The translations under genes and the position numbers were made by a program. From the NCBI RefSeq assembly GCF_027319265.1, contig NZ_DAHVNP010000003.1, forward strand, positions 1 through 34,173: DNA of 34,173 bases, in the 5' to 3' direction. The notes beneath the pieces were generated by a model. The model did not search any database. It was not told where the DNA came from and saw nothing but the letters and a program-made list of their open reading frames with translations. This stretch comes from Ferrimicrobium sp. Lineage in GTDB: Bacteria; Actinomycetota; Acidimicrobiia; Acidimicrobiales; Acidimicrobiaceae. Shown here one piece after another: positions 10,909 through 32,806 of this stretch (within the stretch, counting starts at the first letter, position 1; each line of letters starts with the position of its first letter).

Positions 10909-10962
10909 TTGTCTGACGGGAAGCGACGCCCCCTCAATCGGCCGTCAGATACGCTGGGGGGT

Positions 10963-12654
10963 ATGGAAAAACGCTCGCAGCAACCCGGTTTAACTACTCC
11001 CTCACCACGAAAAGTCATCGTCATCGGTGGCGTGGCCGGCGGTATGTCAGCGGCGACCAGGCTCCGGCGTCTTGATGGGCACGCTTCGATTACCGTGCTC
11101 GAACGTTCCGGTCATGTCTCCTATGCCAACTGCGGACTGCCGTATTTTGTTGGTGCCGTGATCGAAGAGGAAGAGGAACTACTACTGCAGACGCCTGAGC
11201 GGCTGCATGATCGATTTCGGCTTGATGTACGCGTTGATAGTGAAGTGGTAGGCATCGACCGCGAACGTCACCAGGTCCGGGTGCGGTCGACGGGTGGAGG
11301 TGATCCTGAGGTTCTTGAGTACGATAAATTGATCCTTAGCCCAGGAGCGTCGCCGATACGGTTGAACATCCCAGGAGCCGAACGGATGCGCGTGCTGCGC
11401 ACGGTCGAGGATGCTCAGCGGATCGTCGGCGATGTCGCCAAGACGCCGAGGACAGCGGTTGTCGTGGGGGCGGGTTTCGTGGGGTTGGAGACTGCGGAGA
11501 ACCTCTCGCATCATGGTATTGCCGTTACCGTCGTCGAGGCAGCTCCACAGGTGTTGCCAGCACTCGATCCTGAGCTGGCGGTGATGGTCGAGGAGGAGTT
11601 GATCCGACATCACATCACCGTCATCACCGGTGCTTCGGTGGTAGAGGTGCATGCTTGGGGGGTGACGCTCAGCGACGGTCGCGAAGTCGAGGGTGAGTTG
11701 GTGGTGGCGTCGGTTGGCGTACGACCCGATGTGAGACTTGCGAAGTTGGCTGGGCTTGCCATTGGGCCCCATGGTGGCATCGTGGTTGACGAGTCGAACG
11801 TGACAAGTGATCCAGATATCTATTCCGTTGGCGATGCGGTCGAGAAGTTCGATAGTGTCAGTGAGGGGCCATCGTTGATTGCGCTGGCCAACGTGGCCAA
11901 TCGCCATGGGCGTAGGGTTGCCGATCATATCTGTGGGCTCAGTGCTCGTCACGTGCCGTCGATCGGGACCGCCGTTGTGCGGGTGTTCGAGACCGTAGCT
12001 GCGACCACCGGTTGGAATGAGCGTCGTCTCCGAGAGGCAGGGAGGCCATATCAAGTGGTGCGTGCGCATCCAATGAACCACGCTAGTTATTACCCAGGCG
12101 CAGAACCGATGTCGCTGAAGTTGCTCTTTGATCCGGAGGATGGCATGATTCTTGGTGCACAGGCCGTTGGTGGAGGAGGGGTCGACAAACGTATCGATGT
12201 GTTAGCGACGGCGATGTCTGCGGGCCTGCCAGTTGAGGAGCTCGCGAATCTCGAACTCGCCTACGCTCCACCCTTCTCGTCTGCGAAGGATCCGGTCAAC
12301 ATGCTCGGTTATATCGCCGAAAACGTCCGATTTGGCGACTGTGACGTTGTCGAACCAGATGAGGTGCAATCCTTGGTGGAAGCTGGCTGGACCCTGCTCG
12401 ATGTACGAACGCCAGCAGAGCATCTATCCGGTTCTGTTCCGGGCAGTGTCTCTGCGCCAGTTGATGAGCTGAGAGGTGCCATCGACCATCTTGGCGATGG
12501 TCCATTCCTCGTCTATTGTGCGGTGGGGCTTCGTGGTCATGTTGCCACTATGTTGCTTGGCGAGCTCGGTTATCAGGCTCGCAACCTCAATGGCGGTTAC
12601 CGCACCTACACCGCCTTTCATGCCGCTCGTCGAGTCGAGTCGGCACTGGCCTGA
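10963..12654 (+). CDS. CoA-disulfide / persulfide reductase with rhodanese domain
   Basis: A 563-residue fusion. Residues 16-450 form a pyridine-nucleotide disulfide oxidoreductase with the FAD motif VIGGVAGGMSAA. The single redox Cys57 in SYANCGLPYF is typical of CoA-disulfide reductases. The NAD(P) motif is VVGAGFVGLETAE and the C-terminal FAD motif is IYSVGDAVE. The last ~100 residues are a rhodanese domain with LLDVRTPAEH and catalytic Cys519 in VYCAVGLRG. Characterised fusions of this type reduce CoA disulfide, CoA persulfide or polysulfide with NAD(P)H and release sulfide. The ATG at 10963 is chosen: a longer frame from TTG at 10909 begins within 1 bp of the DosR-type box and would make it part of the transcript. 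A G-run abuts the ATG, so initiation may be near-leaderless. No second gene follows in the operon. Confidence 0.92.
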   Translation: MEKRSQQPGLTTPSPRKVIVIGGVAGGMSAATRLRRLDGHASITVLERSGHVSYANCGLPYFVGAVIEEEEELLLQTPERLHDRFRLDVRVDSEVVGIDRERHQVRVRSTGGGDPEVLEYDKLILSPGASPIRLNIPGAERMRVLRTVEDAQRIVGDVAKTPRTAVVVGAGFVGLETAENLSHHGIAVTVVEAAPQVLPALDPELAVMVEEELIRHHITVITGASVVEVHAWGVTLSDGREVEGELVVASVGVRPDVRLAKLAGLAIGPHGGIVVDESNVTSDPDIYSVGDAVEKFDSVSEGPSLIALANVANRHGRRVADHICGLSARHVPSIGTAVVRVFETVAATTGWNERRLREAGRPYQVVRAHPMNHASYYPGAEPMSLKLLFDPEDGMILGAQAVGGGGVDKRIDVLATAMSAGLPVEELANLELAYAPPFSSAKDPVNMLGYIAENVRFGDCDVVEPDEVQSLVEAGWTLLDVRTPAEHLSGSVPGSVSAPVDELRGAIDHLGDGPFLVYCAVGLRGHVATMLLGELGYQARNLNGGYRTYTAFHAARRVESALA

Positions 12655-13435: not shown

Positions 13436-14893
13436 CTACTCAGGAATGAGGTGCCAGCCAGGAAGACCACGAGCTTTATAGATGAACAAGTAGTGCAAGA
13501 GGAGCTTTGTCCAGTGACCGCTCCGTCCGATTTCTCCGGTGGTTGCTTTGTCATCTCGGCCTGTCAATGGGTATTTCTGGTAGTCGGGCACGATGGGGAA
13601 CATTGTCATGGCGGCGGCTGACCCTGTTCGCAGGTTGGCTCCGGCGGAGGCGATACACGCCGCTCCCATCGTCGCCATCGAGGCAGTCTTGGGTCCTTGG
13701 GTCGCGCCCGTTGTGAGCCGGTGGGTGATGTTCTCGGCGACAACTCTTCCCATGACGCCAGAGGGCATCCCAGTTCGAGGAGGTGCTGGCGAGATTGGTG
13801 TTCCATTCACACTGGTACGTGGACGTGAGACGGGATGGGGAGGCGCAAAGGCGATACCGATGCCAAAGAGATTGTCATAGGTTGGGCTCTGATAGGTGTT
13901 TGGCCAATCCTGTGCCGTCCATTGTTCGTAGGGCTTCGCCGTATAATCGGCGTCAACTTTTAGAAACCCATTAGGGGCGAAGAGATCGCTGGTGATGTCG
14001 GTGCCGGTTCGGTCAAAGGCTTGGAGGTCGACACCGCGAAATGGCGGTAACAGCATGGCAAAGTCGTACTCGAGTGAGCCTTTAGTGCCGTCGAGCTGCT
14101 CGTAGTGAACGACCCCTGGGTCAACACGTTCAACATGCGCCTGTAGGATGGCACGAACGTTGCGCTCGCGAAAGAGCGACTCCGTCCAGATCTTCGATGT
14201 CGTAAGGTAACCACTCTGCGAGAATCGCATCCCATCGACACCGAAATCGCCGAGCTCATACTCGTTGGAGAGGTACACGATCTCCGCATTGTCGCGGACG
14301 CCTGCCTCTCGGAGTTCGTGCTCAACATTGAAGGCGTACTCAAAGGCAGCTCCTTCGCAGGTACATGCTCCATGTCCCATGCCAACAACCAGTGTCTTTT
14401 TTTCACCCCGGCGAAGCTCTTCTACGATCTTGGCAAAGGCTTCTGACGTCTTTGCCGCGTGGTCGGCCGTACATACAGACCAGGAGTTGTGGTCAGGTCC
14501 GAGACCCGGTGTCGCTTCAAAATTGAGTTTTGGACCGGTGGCGTTGATCAGGAAATCATACCGGAGACGCTCCGTCTCGCCCTCTCTCTTCGGGTCGGTA
14601 TAGACGATGTCAACAGCACCCATCGGATCACCTTCGTCACCCTCTGGCCAGATAGCGACCGCACGAGCTTGGTGGAACTCGATCCGTTTGCGGCGGTAGA
14701 TGGGGGCCAAAGGGAAGAGCACTTGGGAGGTCTTCATTTTCCCAACACCGACCCAGATGTTGGACGGAATCCAGTTCCAGTCAGCGTTAGGAGAAACGAC
14801 GATTACCTCGTGATTCTGTTTTAGCTGACGCTTGAGGTGCAAGGCTGCGGTATGACCCGAGACTCCAGCACCCAGTATTACTATCTTCGCCAC
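13436..14893 (-). CDS. Sulfide:quinone oxidoreductase-like flavoprotein
   Basis: A 485-residue FAD enzyme. It starts with a dinucleotide-binding motif VILGAGVSGHTAALHL and has the aromatic segment NADWNWIPSNIWVGVGKM seen in SQR-type flavoproteins. The second nucleotide-binding region is VVGMGHGACTCEGAAFEY with Cys177 and Cys179; Cys141 precedes it and another Cys lies in GAACIASAG near the C-terminus. These are candidates for the redox cysteines of SQR. The tail (TKLLLHYLFIYKARGLPGWHL) is aromatic and amphipathic, suiting monotopic membrane attachment near quinone. SQRs oxidise sulfide to polysulfide or sulfane sulfur and pass electrons to quinone. The subtype is uncertain and clearly differs from the type II enzyme at 31275. 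The GTG start follows GAAAGG by 9 nt. No DosR-type box was found upstream. It forms a unit with the 48-residue gene. Confidence 0.82.
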   Translation of the reverse strand: MAKIVILGAGVSGHTAALHLKRQLKQNHEVIVVSPNADWNWIPSNIWVGVGKMKTSQVLFPLAPIYRRKRIEFHQARAVAIWPEGDEGDPMGAVDIVYTDPKREGETERLRYDFLINATGPKLNFEATPGLGPDHNSWSVCTADHAAKTSEAFAKIVEELRRGEKKTLVVGMGHGACTCEGAAFEYAFNVEHELREAGVRDNAEIVYLSNEYELGDFGVDGMRFSQSGYLTTSKIWTESLFRERNVRAILQAHVERVDPGVVHYEQLDGTKGSLEYDFAMLLPPFRGVDLQAFDRTGTDITSDLFAPNGFLKVDADYTAKPYEQWTAQDWPNTYQSPTYDNLFGIGIAFAPPHPVSRPRTSVNGTPISPAPPRTGMPSGVMGRVVAENITHRLTTGATQGPKTASMATMGAACIASAGANLRTGSAAAMTMFPIVPDYQKYPLTGRDDKATTGEIGRSGHWTKLLLHYLFIYKARGLPGWHLIPE

Positions 14894-20173: not shown

Positions 20174-22552
20174 ATGCCTGGATCAATACTTGGAACGTCT
20201 GTCGTTCGCGTAGAGGACCCAGCCCTACTCACTGGGGCCGGTACCTATGTCGACACTATGCTGCCTGAGGGCACCGCACACCTCGTTTTTGTTCGCTCTC
20301 CTTACGCTCACGCCAAGGTGCTAACGGTCGACGTCAGTGATGCAGCGCAAGCTCCTGGGGTCCTCGGAGTCTTCACCGCTCAAACCCTTGGGCTGCCACC
20401 ATTTCATGGTTTCGCCGCTCTGAACAAAGATGTCCCTCGTCCGCCATTGGCGAGCGGGGTGGTGCAATTTGTCGGAGATCCGGTGGTGGCGGTGGTTGCC
20501 AACACGCGAGTTGAAGCGCTCGATGCCGCAGAGTTGGTGGCGATTGACTACGAACCCATTCCCGCTGCGGTAGACATGGAGTATGCACTGACATCTCACG
20601 CTCCGCAACTCTATGAAGGCGTCACTCGTAACATCGCAGCAGGGTATCGTGACCCGGCAGACGACGATGTTCTTGGAGATGCTGAGGTCATTGTCCGTGG
20701 CCGTTTTGAGAATCAACGAGTGGCGGTCGTGCCGATGGAGGGCAATGCCATTTTGGTGCTGCCAAACGCACCTGCCAGCGACCGCCCTTGGACGGTCTAC
20801 ATATCGACACAGATGCCCCATGCGGTGGCTGACTTGCTCGCTGGAGTTTTTGGGATTGAGGCATCCTCAATCCGGGTCGTTGCTCCTCATGTCGGAGGTG
20901 CTTTCGGCGGGAAGGCAGGCATCGTCGCTGAGCATGCTGTCGCATTTGCTTTGGCCGGTCGGTTAGCCCGACCAATCAAGTGGGTTGAGAGCCGGAGCGA
21001 AAATATGGTTGCTATGCCCCAAGGCAGGGGACAGGTGCAATACGCCGAACTCGGTCTGAGGCGCGACGGGACTTTTGTGGGACTTCGTTGTCGTATGGTC
21101 GGTGACGGTGGTGCTTACGGTGGGTTTGGCGGCGGCCTGGTGCTGGGTCCAACCCGCACCATGGCCCAAGGCGTCTATCGGATCCCAAAGGTCTCCTATA
21201 GTGCGGTGGCGGCATTCACCAACACCTCCCCTGTGGGAGCTTTTCGTGGAGCAGGTCGCCCTGAGGCGGCCGCCTTCCTTGAGCGGATTATTGATATGGC
21301 AGCGGATGAGCTCGACATCGACCCCGTGGAGATTCGCCGTCGTAATCTGATACCCGCTGATGCTTTTCCAGTCACCACTCAGGTGGGCACCACCTATGAC
21401 AGTGGCGACTATCAAGGAGCCCTTGACAAACTCCTTGCTGTTGTTGACTATCCAGAACTGCGGCGAGAGCAGACCAGACGGAGGGAACACGGCGAGGTGA
21501 TCCAGCTCGGGATCGGGGTTTCAACCTATGTGGAGATCACCGCGGGAGGGGGACAGAATGAATACTCTCGTGTGGAGGTCCACCCTGATGGCTCTGCGAC
21601 GATCGATGTCGGTACCTCTGCTCACGGTCAAGGGCATGCAACCTCTTTTGCGATGATCGTTGCGGATCGCCTGGGTATTCCATTGGAGCAGATCAAGTTT
21701 CGACAATCCGATACCGCCATCATTCCGCGTGGTGGCGGCACCGGAGGTTCGCGATCACTGCAGATCGGTGGCTCTGCGGTAGCGGGCGCTGCAGAGCTGG
21801 TCCTTGATGCGGCGAAAAAATTGGCGGCACACCATCTGGAGGCCGCGGAAGATGACATTGTGGTTGCTGCCACTGGAGGATTGGAGGTAGCTGGTGTCCC
21901 GAGCGCGCATTTGAGCTGGACCCAGCTCGCTGATATCGCTGCTCAGCAAGATCGATCCCTGTTTGCCACGTTCGATTTTCAACAGGAGAGTGCAACCTTC
22001 CCCTTTGGAGCACACCTCTCAGTCGTCGAGGTCGACACCGATACAGGCAAGGTCACCCCCATTCGTCACGTTGCTGTCGATGACTGTGGTCGAATCGTCA
22101 ACCCGTTGATTGTCAATGGTCAACAGCATGGGGGTATCACTCAAGGGATCGCCCAGGCTCTGTGGGAGGAGGCGGTCTATGACCCAGATGGCAATCCCCT
22201 CACAGCAACGTTGGCGGAGTATGCTATGCCGTCCGCCGCCGAGCTACCCTCTTTTGAGATCTTCAACACCGAAACCCCCACTCCTTACAACGAACTCGGT
22301 GCAAAAGGGATTGGAGAGTCGGGAACGATTGGTTCGATGCCTGCGGTACAGAACGCGGTCGTCGATGCATTGTCGTACCTCGGTGTGCGCCATATCGATA
22401 TGCCGTGTACTCCTGAGCGGGTTTGGAGGGCCATCGCTAGTGCCGACGTACCCTCGAAGCAGCAAGACTGGGCAGAACCAGGTGATGTCTTTGCAATCTT
22501 GCCCATCCGAGGTGCCAGTTCGAGTTCGGACGCTGAGGCGGTCGATATCTAG
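20174..22552 (+). CDS. Molybdenum hydroxylase large subunit (CoxL-like, form II)
   Basis: A 792-residue protein of the xanthine dehydrogenase/CO dehydrogenase large-subunit family, which binds the molybdopterin-cytosine-dinucleotide cofactor. Landmarks: N-terminal G-x-S-V-x-R-x-EDPALLTGAGTYVDT; GGAFGGK at about 237-243; the active-site loop AFRGAGR at 356-362; the Gln/Gly-rich cofactor region TSAHGQGHATSFAMIVADRL; GGGTGGSRS; and catalytic Glu715 in GAKGIGESGTIG. True form I CO dehydrogenases have AYxCSFR in the loop; AFRGAGR places this in form II, so aldehyde, heterocycle or another hydroxylation is more likely than CO oxidation. The FAD (CoxM) and 2Fe-2S (CoxS) subunits normally adjoin, but no gene for either lies within reach. 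No Shine-Dalgarno precedes the ATG. Confidence 0.92.
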   Translation: MPGSILGTSVVRVEDPALLTGAGTYVDTMLPEGTAHLVFVRSPYAHAKVLTVDVSDAAQAPGVLGVFTAQTLGLPPFHGFAALNKDVPRPPLASGVVQFVGDPVVAVVANTRVEALDAAELVAIDYEPIPAAVDMEYALTSHAPQLYEGVTRNIAAGYRDPADDDVLGDAEVIVRGRFENQRVAVVPMEGNAILVLPNAPASDRPWTVYISTQMPHAVADLLAGVFGIEASSIRVVAPHVGGAFGGKAGIVAEHAVAFALAGRLARPIKWVESRSENMVAMPQGRGQVQYAELGLRRDGTFVGLRCRMVGDGGAYGGFGGGLVLGPTRTMAQGVYRIPKVSYSAVAAFTNTSPVGAFRGAGRPEAAAFLERIIDMAADELDIDPVEIRRRNLIPADAFPVTTQVGTTYDSGDYQGALDKLLAVVDYPELRREQTRRREHGEVIQLGIGVSTYVEITAGGGQNEYSRVEVHPDGSATIDVGTSAHGQGHATSFAMIVADRLGIPLEQIKFRQSDTAIIPRGGGTGGSRSLQIGGSAVAGAAELVLDAAKKLAAHHLEAAEDDIVVAATGGLEVAGVPSAHLSWTQLADIAAQQDRSLFATFDFQQESATFPFGAHLSVVEVDTDTGKVTPIRHVAVDDCGRIVNPLIVNGQQHGGITQGIAQALWEEAVYDPDGNPLTATLAEYAMPSAAELPSFEIFNTETPTPYNELGAKGIGESGTIGSMPAVQNAVVDALSYLGVRHIDMPCTPERVWRAIASADVPSKQQDWAEPGDVFAILPIRGASSSSDAEAVDI

Positions 22553-23396: not shown

Positions 23397-23792
23397 CAGT
23401 GCCCCTCATCTGCCGTTACCCCGCGTGGGTCAGGTGTCGTCAGATGGCCTGTCGCGGCGTCATGGTCGTATTGAAAAGGGGTGGGTCCCTTGCCACAGAA
23501 CCGTGTGACGATGTCAGGCGAGTGCAACTGTTGGAAGTGGCGTAGGTGATAGCGCCGGGATAATCGATGAGAACGTTTGCTCGGCGTAGCAACCCTGGTC
23601 GGCAAGTGATCCTTGGAGCTCGTTGCCGTTGCCTACGTTGAACGCGCGTAGCTGACATAGCAAGACCAGAGGCGACCCCTCCTCGTTAGATCCATTACTC
23701 AAAGGGGGTTGTGTTGACTTTGGGGACAGCTGCAGGATGCGTACGAGAGTCGCTATACTGTACTTAACGATATAACGTTAAAGGAGCGAAAA
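23397..23792. other. 396-bp intergenic region with the PadR-gene promoter
   Basis: No gene is supported. At the right end are a TATACT -10-like hexamer (23754-23759) with a poor -35 region, and the palindrome at 23764-23781 directly before the ribosome binding site of the PadR gene. Confidence 0.55.
23764..23781. promoter_or_regulatory. 18-bp palindromic operator before the padR-like gene
   Basis: TTAACGATATAACGTTAA has perfect 6-bp arms TTAACG/CGTTAA around ATATAA. It lies immediately after a TATACT -10 and just before AAAGGAG, so it covers the expected transcription start. That is the usual place for an autoregulatory PadR operator. Confidence 0.7.
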
Positions 23793-24443
23793 ATGTATCA
23801 AGATGGTATGAACGGACGCGGCAGACATCAGCGCGGCATGCATGGTGGTTGTGGTTGCGGAGGTAGCAAAATGAGAGAGGGATCAGAGATGATGAATGAA
23901 GAAGATGGTATGAACGGACGCGGCAGACATCAGCGCGGCATGCATGGTGGCTGTGGAGGTCCAGGAATGCATGGAGGCGGTTGTGAAGGACAGGGGATGC
24001 GTCGACGGAGGTCCCCACGAGGTAGGGTTCGTCGCGAGATTCTCTCCCTCCTCACCGGCGGTCCGAAACACGGTTATGAACTCATGCAGTTGATTGCGGA
24101 GCGCAACGGTGGGGTTTGGCAACCAAGCCCAGGCTCGATCTACCCGACCTTGTCGATGTTAGAGGACGCTGGCTTCATTGTCGGCCAGGAGGATGACGGC
24201 CGAAAGGTTTACACACTGACCGATGCCGGACGAGCTGAGGCTGAAGGACTTGCGTCTGACGCTGAAGACATTGGTTTTGGTCGAGAGTTGGATCTTGGTC
24301 GAGAGGTCCGCGCCACCTTCCAGGCACTGCGACAGGTGGACATTGTGGGCACTGCTGAACAACGGCAGCGTGCACAGCAGCTGCTTGCCAGCCTGCGACG
24401 CGATGTCTACCAAATGCTCGCTGAGGATCCGACAAACCAGTAA
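23793..24443 (+). CDS. PadR-family regulator with Cys/His/Met/Gly-rich duplicated N-terminus
   Basis: A 216-residue protein. Residues 1-75 are an unusual Gly/Met/His/Cys-rich extension in which DGMNGRGRHQRGMHGGCG occurs twice (4-21 and 38-55), with Cys20, Cys22, Cys54 and Cys64 plus His12, 17, 46, 51 and 60. Residues 79-150 are a PadR winged helix: REILSLLTGGPKHGYELMQLI, then PSPGSIYPTLSMLEDAGFI and DDGRKVYTLTDAGR. The C-terminal helix (ATFQALRQV to the end) is the PadR dimerisation arm. The strong site AAAGGAG lies 6 nt before the ATG, so the extension is translated. PadR proteins usually repress efflux or detoxification genes and their own gene. The extension could bind metal ions, making this a candidate metal-responsive member; that is inference. 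A terminator follows directly. Confidence 0.88.
   Translation: MYQDGMNGRGRHQRGMHGGCGCGGSKMREGSEMMNEEDGMNGRGRHQRGMHGGCGGPGMHGGGCEGQGMRRRRSPRGRVRREILSLLTGGPKHGYELMQLIAERNGGVWQPSPGSIYPTLSMLEDAGFIVGQEDDGRKVYTLTDAGRAEAEGLASDAEDIGFGRELDLGREVRATFQALRQVDIVGTAEQRQRAQQLLASLRRDVYQMLAEDPTNQ
23800..23950. repeat. 49-bp perfect direct repeat inside the padR-like gene
   Basis: Bases 23800-23848 are repeated exactly at 23902-23950, an offset of 102 bp (34 codons, frame kept). One mismatch (T/C) follows, then identity resumes for five bases. The identity at synonymous positions points to a recent in-frame duplication, or to recombination keeping the copies alike. Confidence 0.9.
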
Positions 24444-24467: not shown

Positions 24468-24490
24468 AAGCCCCCTTCTTGGGGGCTTTT
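24468..24490. terminator. Rho-independent terminator
   Basis: Arms AAGCCCCC (24468-24475) and GGGGGCTT (24481-24488) around TTCTT are followed by a short T-run to 24490. It lies 25 bp after the padR-like stop and overlaps the end of the convergent lipoprotein gene. Confidence 0.9.
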
Positions 24491-31274: not shown

Positions 31275-32474
31275 TTATGCTCGGCCCTTTAACATCATGT
31301 TCCAGTACATCAATGGCAAGCCATAGCGCTTGAGAAGCCACATGTCATAGCGCTCCTTCTGGGTGTTGATCACAGGGATCGTCGGGTGTGGCTTCATGGT
31401 GTAATCAAACTCCGCTAGCAGCATGCGGTTGTGTGAGGTCACCAGGGGGCACGAGGCGTAGCCATCGTACTGGGCAGAGAGCGCCTGTCCACGCATCTCA
31501 GCGAGGAGGTTTGCAACCACGACTGGCGCCTGCTTGCGGATGGCCGCACCCGTCTTGGAGTTAGGGGTGTTCCCCGCATCGCCCAGCGCGAAGATGTTGT
31601 GATAGGTCGGGTGTTGGTGGGAGTTTTTGCCAACGTCGACGTAGCCGTTCGGGGTTTTATCGCTGATGGGCGATCGTTTGATCCAATCGGGTGCGCTCTG
31701 CGGAGGAACCGCGTGCAAGAAGTCATACTTGATGGTTGTGGTCGAATCCTCTTTGTTATCTTTGATGACGACCTCTCGCTTGTTGCCGTCGATCTCGATC
31801 ATCTCGCTTTGGAAACGGACATCGATGTTGTAACGTTTGACCACTTCGTCGAGGACGTTGGAGAACTCAGGCACCCCAAACATGCCAGGTGTCGGCAGGA
31901 CAAGGATCAGGTGGATGTCGTTCAGGACCCCTCGCCTTTGCCAGTGGTCGGCGGCAAGATAGGCGATCTTCTGGGGTGCCCCCGCGCATTTGATGGGACC
32001 AGACGGCATGGTGAAGACCGCAGTACCCGAGGTCATGTCTCGAAAGAACTCATGCGTTCTCGGTGCGAGGTCGATGCGATAGTTGCTTGAGACTCCGTTC
32101 TTGCCGAGTGTCTCAACGAGCCCAGGGATCTTATCGTAGTCGAGTTGGATCCCGGGACAGACAACGAGGTAGTCATAGTTCACGAGGACACCAGCTGCGG
32201 TGGTGACGGTTTGGGTATCGGGATCGATCTCAGTGGCGGCGTCGCGAATCCATTTCACACCTCTTGGCATCACCGACGCCTCGCTACGCAAGGTCTCTGC
32301 CGGTTTGGCCAGACCTGCCCCCACGATCGTCCAGAGTGGCTGATAGTAGTGGTCTTCAGATGGTTCGATGATGGCTACATCGGACTCGCCAGCGTTTCTT
32401 AGCCGAGCGGCCACTGTAATACCAGCGGTCCCTCCTCCAATGATTACTACCCTGTGGTGAAGCCCATCTGGCAT
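31275..32474 (-). CDS. sqr: Type II sulfide:quinone oxidoreductase
   Basis: A 399-residue FAD enzyme resembling the type II SQR group that includes mitochondrial SQOR. The FAD motif VVIIGGGTAGITVAARL is at the N-terminus, followed by HYYQPLWTIVGAG. The redox cysteines are Cys163 in IKCAGAPQKIAYL and Cys342 in SCPLVTSHNRMLLAEFDY, both highly typical of type II. The second FAD motif is IFALGDAGNTP. The C-terminus (YGLPLMYWNMMLKG) is the membrane/quinone-contact segment. It oxidises sulfide to sulfane sulfur (persulfide on an acceptor) and reduces quinone. A strong site AGGGGGG lies about 7 nt before the ATG at 32474; a longer frame to 32765 runs through the promoter. Two DosR-type palindromes lie upstream at 32522-32558. 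Confidence 0.95.
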   Translation of the reverse strand: MPDGLHHRVVIIGGGTAGITVAARLRNAGESDVAIIEPSEDHYYQPLWTIVGAGLAKPAETLRSEASVMPRGVKWIRDAATEIDPDTQTVTTAAGVLVNYDYLVVCPGIQLDYDKIPGLVETLGKNGVSSNYRIDLAPRTHEFFRDMTSGTAVFTMPSGPIKCAGAPQKIAYLAADHWQRRGVLNDIHLILVLPTPGMFGVPEFSNVLDEVVKRYNIDVRFQSEMIEIDGNKREVVIKDNKEDSTTTIKYDFLHAVPPQSAPDWIKRSPISDKTPNGYVDVGKNSHQHPTYHNIFALGDAGNTPNSKTGAAIRKQAPVVVANLLAEMRGQALSAQYDGYASCPLVTSHNRMLLAEFDYTMKPHPTIPVINTQKERYDMWLLKRYGLPLMYWNMMLKGRA

Positions 32475-32521
32475 AGTAATCCCCCCTTTCTTGGCACATA
32501 GTCGTGAGTCGCCCCACAAAG

Positions 32522-32535
32522 AGGACTTTAGTCCT
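32522..32535. promoter_or_regulatory. DosR (DevR)-type box, proximal to sqr
   Basis: AGGACTTTAGTCCT has perfect 6-bp arms around TT and matches the DosR core GGGACTWWAGTCCC at 12 of 14 positions. It lies 48 bp upstream of the sqr start. It is nearly the same as the box before the CoA-disulfide reductase gene (10895-10908). Confidence 0.75.
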
Positions 32536-32544
32536 ATTTTTTGG

Positions 32545-32558
32545 ATGACTTCAGTCCC
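32545..32558. promoter_or_regulatory. DosR (DevR)-type box, distal to sqr
   Basis: ATGACTTCAGTCCC matches the DosR core at 11 of 14 positions. Its centre is 23 bp from that of the proximal box, about two helical turns. Paired boxes at such spacing are common in the mycobacterial DosR regulon. Confidence 0.55.
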
Positions 32559-32806
32559 CTGACTCATGAATTGGAGTGCACATGGAGATGCCGTGACTGG
32601 AGATGGACCGGCAATGCTACTTCGAGCGCTGAGGCAGACGAACCGCCCACGAGCCGGGAGAGTGACTGTTTTATGGGTTTGAGCTGCCCCAATAGATATC
32701 GAGACGGTTGGTGAAAACTGCGGTTGACTGGTCGAGAGGTACGGCAAGTACCTCGTGTCGATCACCCCGGACTCCCAATGCAGGATCGAGGGAATCTATT
32801 GAGGGC

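Follow-up and report, generated by a model that had tools for sequence, protein, structure and literature searches.

A PadR-type regulator of Ferrimicrobium with a conserved Cys/His/Met-rich extension and two repeat copies that evolve in concert

The padR locus and its product

The window analysed in this study is a stretch of 34,173 nucleotides, contig C3 of the 2.88 Mb genome G000 of Ferrimicrobium sp. Members of Ferrimicrobium are iron-oxidising acidophiles, and the host of the gene described here is an iron-associated, probably acid-living bacterium. The window carries a padR-like gene, the features of which are collected in Table 1. Its product scored 75.3 bits against PF03551 (cut-off 27) and thus belongs to the PadR family; in the NCBIfam search no specific model was found above its cut-off. 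The initial annotation had described a Gly-rich N-terminus of 75 residues with two motif copies and four Cys before the PadR domain, and this was confirmed in the ORF. The Cys residues are located at positions 20, 22, 54 and 64, all N-terminal of the domain, and the Met residues of the extension (10) are roughly equal in number to Cys and His together (4+5). A MHGGGC stretch follows the second motif copy inside the extension, and the conserved RGRVR comes after the 75 residues. The Shine-Dalgarno string AAAGGAG, a good ribosome-binding site, is found in identical form before padR of G019 and G017. The AlphaFold model of the protein was unusable (mean pLDDT 44, alignment of 4 rows), and the terminator scan reported no terminator, which leaves the hairpin downstream of padR a weak candidate.

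Table 1. Features of the padR locus, in window coordinates
Feature	Position	Strand	Basis or remark
padR-like gene, 216 aa	23793..24443	+	ORF, ATG start; PF03551 E 3.8e-21
Shine-Dalgarno AAAGGAG	23780..23786	+	read in sequence; duplex energy -7.2
N-terminal extension, residues 1-75	23793..24017	+	24 Gly, 10 Met, 5 His, 4 Cys
PadR winged-helix domain, residues 83-150	24039..24242	+	PF03551; 38% identity over 106 aa to NfeR
Repeat copy 1, 55 nt	23800..23854	+	CxC motif encoded at its end and in the codons that follow
Repeat copy 2, 55 nt	23902..23956	+	54/55 nt (98%) identical to copy 1
Palindrome TAACGATATAACGTTA, putative autoregulatory operator	23765..23780	+	sequence pattern before padR
GC-rich hairpin between padR and convergent gene, possible terminator	24468..24488	+	seen in sequence; weak

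Several other genes of the window were also recognised. The large subunit of a molybdenum hydroxylase of the glyceraldehyde/CO dehydrogenase type is encoded at 20174-22552; in the scanned subset of window ORFs, neither a medium nor a small subunit was recognised. The model for seleno-type III sulfide quinone reductases was matched by the ORFs at 13436-14893 (E 1.3e-14) and 31275-32765 (E 4.7e-75), neither of which reached the cut-off. A CoA-disulfide-reductase-like protein (10909-12654) has about 110 extra C-terminal residues past the matched region.

Conservation of the tail and concerted evolution of its copies

The family search gave matches in 30 of the 42 genomes at E 1e-8. These were placed in 31 loci (L001-L031), of which 27 were parsed; L002 has the same CDS as L003, L024 is cut by a contig end, and L029 and L030 are weak and tail-free. 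Nine further weak matches without loci stand outside the family counts. Starts were picked from in-frame start codons with a Shine-Dalgarno-like sequence, and those of L008, L027 and L028 are uncertain. The tails of the 27 orthologues are 32-83 residues long, and a tailed orthologue is present in all seven Ferrimicrobium-group genomes; close orthologues that start near residue 69 and lack the extension, named beforehand as the case against it, were not found. L029 and L030 align over the PadR domain alone (37% and 34% identity), and this weak, restricted alignment makes them look like paralogues.

The 27 tails are enriched in potential metal ligands as compared to the rest of the protein, the mean fractions in tail and remainder being 0.031 and 0.001 for Cys, 0.092 and 0.009 for His and 0.067 and 0.019 for Met, along with 0.331 and 0.099 for Gly. 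Cys is present in the tail of 22 members and in the remaining protein of two, five tails have none, and 14 tails hold two Cys within five residues. All seven Ferrimicrobium sequences share Cys 22 in the alignment and keep G-C-x-C, counting the CC of G017; the pair reads CGC, CGC, CC, CNC, CRC, CNC and CSC. The extension is a real, conserved coding sequence.

In a wider sample of the phylum, 59 of 296 genomes (G000 and G001 included) matched at 1e-20, and 30 loci were taken from them, the window's own among these. The other 29 (L085-L113) yielded 27 parsed loci, L103 and L108 being left out and L086 being G001 again. By the starts that the script chose, Cys occurs in the tail of six and is lacking in 21; among the six, L088, L094 and L107 start clearly too early and one is L086. 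Three or more His are found in 23 of the 27 tails. As the phylum tails are His-rich and mostly free of Cys, the Gly/His tail is the wider phylum feature, and the Cys/Met-rich form is seen at its strongest in Ferrimicrobium.

In the window protein, the 18-residue motif DGMNGRGRHQRGMHGGCG is found at residues 4-21 and again at 38-55, and the underlying repeat copies are 102 nt apart. A 47-nt pattern taken from the repeat, searched with up to two mismatches, gave two matches in the window, both exact, and none in 100 shuffles. Of the 54 tails scanned, three have a repeat of at least 50 nt (G000, G019 and G017). G018, G015 and G020b have a shorter second module which resembles the first mainly at the protein level, and the tail of G016 consists of one module. 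None of the 27 parsed Actinomycetota tails has a spaced DNA repeat of at least 20 nt at 90% identity with copies at least 45 nt apart.

The comparison of the three species with the long repeat, one of them (G017) a MAG, showed concerted evolution of the copies. Within a genome, 0 (G000), 1 (G019) and 0 (G017) of the 45 nt compared (15 codons) differ between the two copies, as against 8-14 between genomes. Sites changed in parallel in both copies as against otherwise numbered 9 and 1 for G000-G019, 8 and 0 for G000-G017 and 13 and 1 for G019-G017; the codons altered in both copies were synonymous in 6, 4 and 5 cases and non-synonymous in 2, 3 and 5 cases for the same pairs. Had the copies been independent since the species split, the binomial probabilities of 0, 1 and 0 differences would be 1.5e-4, 5.3e-4 and 1.5e-4. 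With equal amino acids and independent codon choice, based on the codon usage of 11 window ORFs, 6.4-6.8 of the 15 codons are expected to match, whereas 15, 14 and 15 were seen (P 4.2e-7 to 1.1e-6), and selection on the protein alone is therefore insufficient as an explanation. The spacer and both flanks of the repeat align between species, and an independent duplication in each was rejected on this ground. It follows that the duplication predates the split; the simplest explanation for the likeness of the copies, with good support from the sequences, is gene conversion. G017 and G020 are MAGs, and repeats may in principle be blended by assembly, yet the copies have distinct flanks. Further, the G020 MAG has two padR genes (L002 and L031), one sharing its whole CDS with G019 and the other similar to the gene of G015, and is probably a mixed bin.

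The palindrome before padR and the search for other targets

TAACGATATAACGTTA runs into the AAAGGAG string by one base, at 23780. Sites with at most one mismatch to TAACGATATATCGTTA number seven in the Ferrimicrobium genomes and all of them lie before padR, one each in G000, G015, G017, G018 and G019, two in G020 and none in G016; the reversed pattern gave none. There are six independent sites at most, because one G020 padR copy is identical to the G019 gene. When two mismatches are allowed, G020 gains two places, and G000 and G019 gain one each. The Ferrimicrobium sites read CGATATAACG, and the core ends 15 nt upstream of the ATG in all six genes measured (L002, with the CDS of L003, left out).

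Outside Ferrimicrobium, near-perfect sites were found before padR of G004 and in G010, the perfect site of the latter lying inside an ORF. Among the matches listed, with G022-G041 set aside from this placement, G001 (a single-contig genome), G005, G007 and G013 have a single exact core CGATATATCG each, before padR; G002, G003, G004, G006, G010 and G014 have it before padR and also elsewhere; and in G008, G011 and G012 the variant AAGATATATCGTGATATAG stands before padR instead. The core also turned up, among these matches, in genomes that gave no tailed orthologue, and it is thus not specific to padR everywhere. In the upstream regions of the family, the core was present in 25 of 27 by the loose and 21 of 27 by the strict pattern, and in those of the phylum loci in 20 and 19 of 27, as compared to none in 200 letter shuffles. 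Across the phylum it is the palindrome that goes with the gene, while a nearest neighbour is common to two genera at most; as evidence from sequence only, this gives good support to the reading that padR may well be autoregulated through the palindrome at its own promoter.

The nearest ORF on each side, within about 1.5 kb, was compared across genera. An HD-domain phosphohydrolase lies upstream of padR in two genera (g2 and g7), and in g4 and g6 padR stands between an unassigned ORF on its upstream side and the gene of a LeuA-type synthase on the other; no nearest neighbour is common to Ferrimicrobium and any other genus. The initial annotation had proposed listing the relatives with such extensions together with their neighbours; the tailed relatives were found, and no metal gene was seen in the ten nearest-neighbour proteins scanned across genera or recognised among any of the scanned padR neighbours, window ORFs included.

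Candidates for a second target were also considered. The arm-only pattern gave 12 sites in seven genomes, as compared to three for the reversed control; apart from those before padR and the MoxR-type operon, they are located in G015:C11, G016:C144 and G019:C2. The site TAACGATATCACGTTA before a 68-aa ORF and the MoxR-type operon (content judged by eye from translations) in G000 and G019 was rejected as a conserved target, one arm having a mismatch in G017 and both arms being altered in G015, G016, G018 and G020; it may still have a role within the G000-G019-G017 group. Upstream of the same ORF and operon, the core-promoter-like TGATATC.TTAC is kept in five of the seven genomes. A three-mismatch site in G000:C37 was discarded as lying inside an apparent coding sequence, as judged by eye. 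MacAB-type efflux genes (HlyD, ABC, MacB, DUF5666, HlyD) are found upstream of padR in G017, G018 and G019, and were rejected as a target because they are absent at padR in G000, G015 and G020b and have no site with up to two mismatches before the cluster. There is apparently no conserved target other than padR itself.

Two observations on these regions may be recorded in their own right. In the promoter region of the conserved 68-aa ORF/MoxR operon, GGTAACG-N6-CGTTACC is found at L044 9662-9681 and L045 9487-9506; G000 and G019 have it intact and G017 almost so, unlike the other four congeners. The five-gene MacAB-type cluster of G017, G018 and G019 is missing before padR at window 23397-23764, and a MacB relative with 65% identity is encoded elsewhere in the G000 genome.

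Comparison with NfeR and possible function of the tail

NfeR (YqjI) of E. coli is the closest characterised relative found (E 8e-16 in one comparison; identity in Table 1). Like the window protein, it has a Cys/His-rich N-terminal tail before the PadR domain and a palindrome at its own promoter, a likeness read from the sequences only; the NfeR palindrome TTAGATATATCTAA is AT-centred and lies directly before the Shine-Dalgarno sequence of its own gene, and the arms differ between the two. A repeated ligand unit is also shared, since the NfeR tail has HEGCCK twice, but 5 of the 18 nt are not the same in the two units, which are alike at the protein level only (L052 11780-12403), unlike the window repeat. 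The window tail has more Met and fewer Cys than that of NfeR. In E. coli nfeF is divergent from nfeR, whereas no nfeF-type ferric reductase was found among the window ORFs scanned. PF08021, the NfeF family, was detected in none of the seven Ferrimicrobium-group genomes as against three of 14 control genomes, E. coli among them, and in view of this absence of the NfeR target family the window protein is not classed as an NfeR orthologue.

To our knowledge, metal-sensing PadR proteins with a Cys/His tail are known mainly from NfeR. PMC7981267 describes NfeR as repressing nfeF, with excess nickel relieving the repression; further information on NfeR is given in PMC9508795, and the main text of a nickel review (PMC7055735) has no mention of YqjI, NfeR or PadR. 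PMC11237479 concerns PadR proteins of another kind, those in envelope stress that are paired with HAAS domains. The literature search, with subscription papers mostly outside it, gave no paper on Ferrimicrobium and PadR and none on the window protein. The structures 5x11, a PadR of Bacillus, and 5zhc (Rv3488) matched the winged helix with E 1.1e-6 and 6.3e-6; they align from chain residues 6 and 8, over the PadR part alone, and have no comparable tail. The Gly/His-tailed Actinomycetota proteins share the domain order, and 19 of the 27 parsed loci carry the strict core CGATATATCG upstream of the gene itself; most of the proteins are without Cys, unlike the window protein.

To the initial annotation, no PadR of this type was known to be characterised, which does not hold: nickel-responsive NfeR, with its Cys/His-rich N-terminus, is one. 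An NfeR-like PadR with such a tail therefore has a precedent, and the new element is the concerted evolution of the two tail copies. The other proposal of that annotation, a metal- or redox-sensing PadR, is retained as the most economical reading, given the enrichment of Cys, His and Met in the 27 tails and the kept G-C-x-C; the metal part of it we infer, as no metal gene was recognised among the scanned neighbours. The window padR is conserved and probably self-regulated, its tail is likely to bind metal, and by analogy the protein probably works like NfeR.

We give an even chance to a solitary, autorepressing, metal-responsive PadR whose tail modules bind metal in the NfeR mode. In this mechanism, a PadR dimer on TAACGATATAACGTTA, before the ribosome-binding site of its gene, would keep its own synthesis low. 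The two near-identical Met/His/Cys modules, together with the short further stretch, may bind a soft or borderline metal ion, the candidates being Cu(I), Ni(II), Fe(II) and Zn(II) and the possible ligands CxC and nearby His or Met. The metal-filled repressor would loosen from the DNA, more protein would be made and more metal bound, as in NfeR, though no NfeF-type target was found. In the three Ferrimicrobium species the module is doubled, and gene conversion probably keeps the copies alike. Against this metal-sensor reading stand the lack of any target found but padR itself, which is odd for a sensor; G016, without a near-perfect operator and without a second module; the scanned neighbours, in which no metal gene was seen; and the Actinomycetota relatives, most of which are without tail Cys.

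The same data were weighed under other explanations. A disordered Gly/Arg/His tail could act by charge or condensation, in DNA contact or oligomerisation, while the PadR part senses otherwise. The phylum relatives, with Gly/His-rich, mostly Cys-free tails and the same operator, would suit such a tail, and the poor model predicts no secondary structure in it; we consider it unlikely all the same, as it leaves unexplained both the CxC/CC in seven of seven Ferrimicrobium sequences and the confinement of Cys to the tail. That confinement, with every Cys of the window protein in the extension and none in the PadR part, speaks for a thiol or redox sensor, in which the four Cys per monomer (eight per dimer) form disulfides on oxidation that switch the repressor and metal is incidental, and CxC and the spaced Cys are compatible with disulfides. 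A thiol switch, however, does not need the Met (6.7%) and His (9.2%) of the extensions, is difficult to reconcile with the 21 of 27 parsed phylum relatives without tail Cys, and departs from NfeR, which is nickel-responsive; this sensor is judged rather unlikely.

The repeat itself could be neutral, produced by recombination or slippage in Gly-rich sequence, tolerated because the tail is disordered, and homogenised without functional meaning. Tail lengths vary, short GFGPG-type repeats occur in other genera, and spaced repeats of 22-26 nt are found in L021, L022 and L005, but the reading frame, the spacing of 33-35 codons and the Cys pair are kept in three diverged species, and the spacer is homologous while the copies are homogenised, which together make a neutral origin highly unlikely. 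Least credible of all is a second translation start at module 2, giving long (two-module) and short (one-module) isoforms: in-frame ATGs there have Shine-Dalgarno-like energies of -8.3, -7.4, -7.3, -12.6 and -9.8 (G000, G019, G017, G018 and G020b), but that of G015 is -3.0, the Gly codons GGA and GGT yield such strings by chance, and other internal ATGs have stronger energies (-10.9 and -10.5 at codons 27 and 59 of G000).

Returning to the metal-responsive PadR, it is surprising that two putative sensor modules are alike down to the DNA and that a conserved target except padR is apparently absent. The actinobacterial set, in which the NfeR layout is combined with an operator of its own and in which no neighbour is widely shared, would point to a little-studied self-regulated class, perhaps metal-binding, and the parallel drift of two intragenic copies offers a clean case for gene conversion on a putative sensor segment. 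As a bolder and doubtful extension, the gene could be a one-gene metal homeostat, in which the tail is carried on the repressor, the sole strong operator is at its own promoter and the product is itself the metal sponge; conversion would match both sites, so that the ligands of the sensor would drift together from one species to the next, and the Gly/His-tailed Actinomycetota members might be the same device for other metals.
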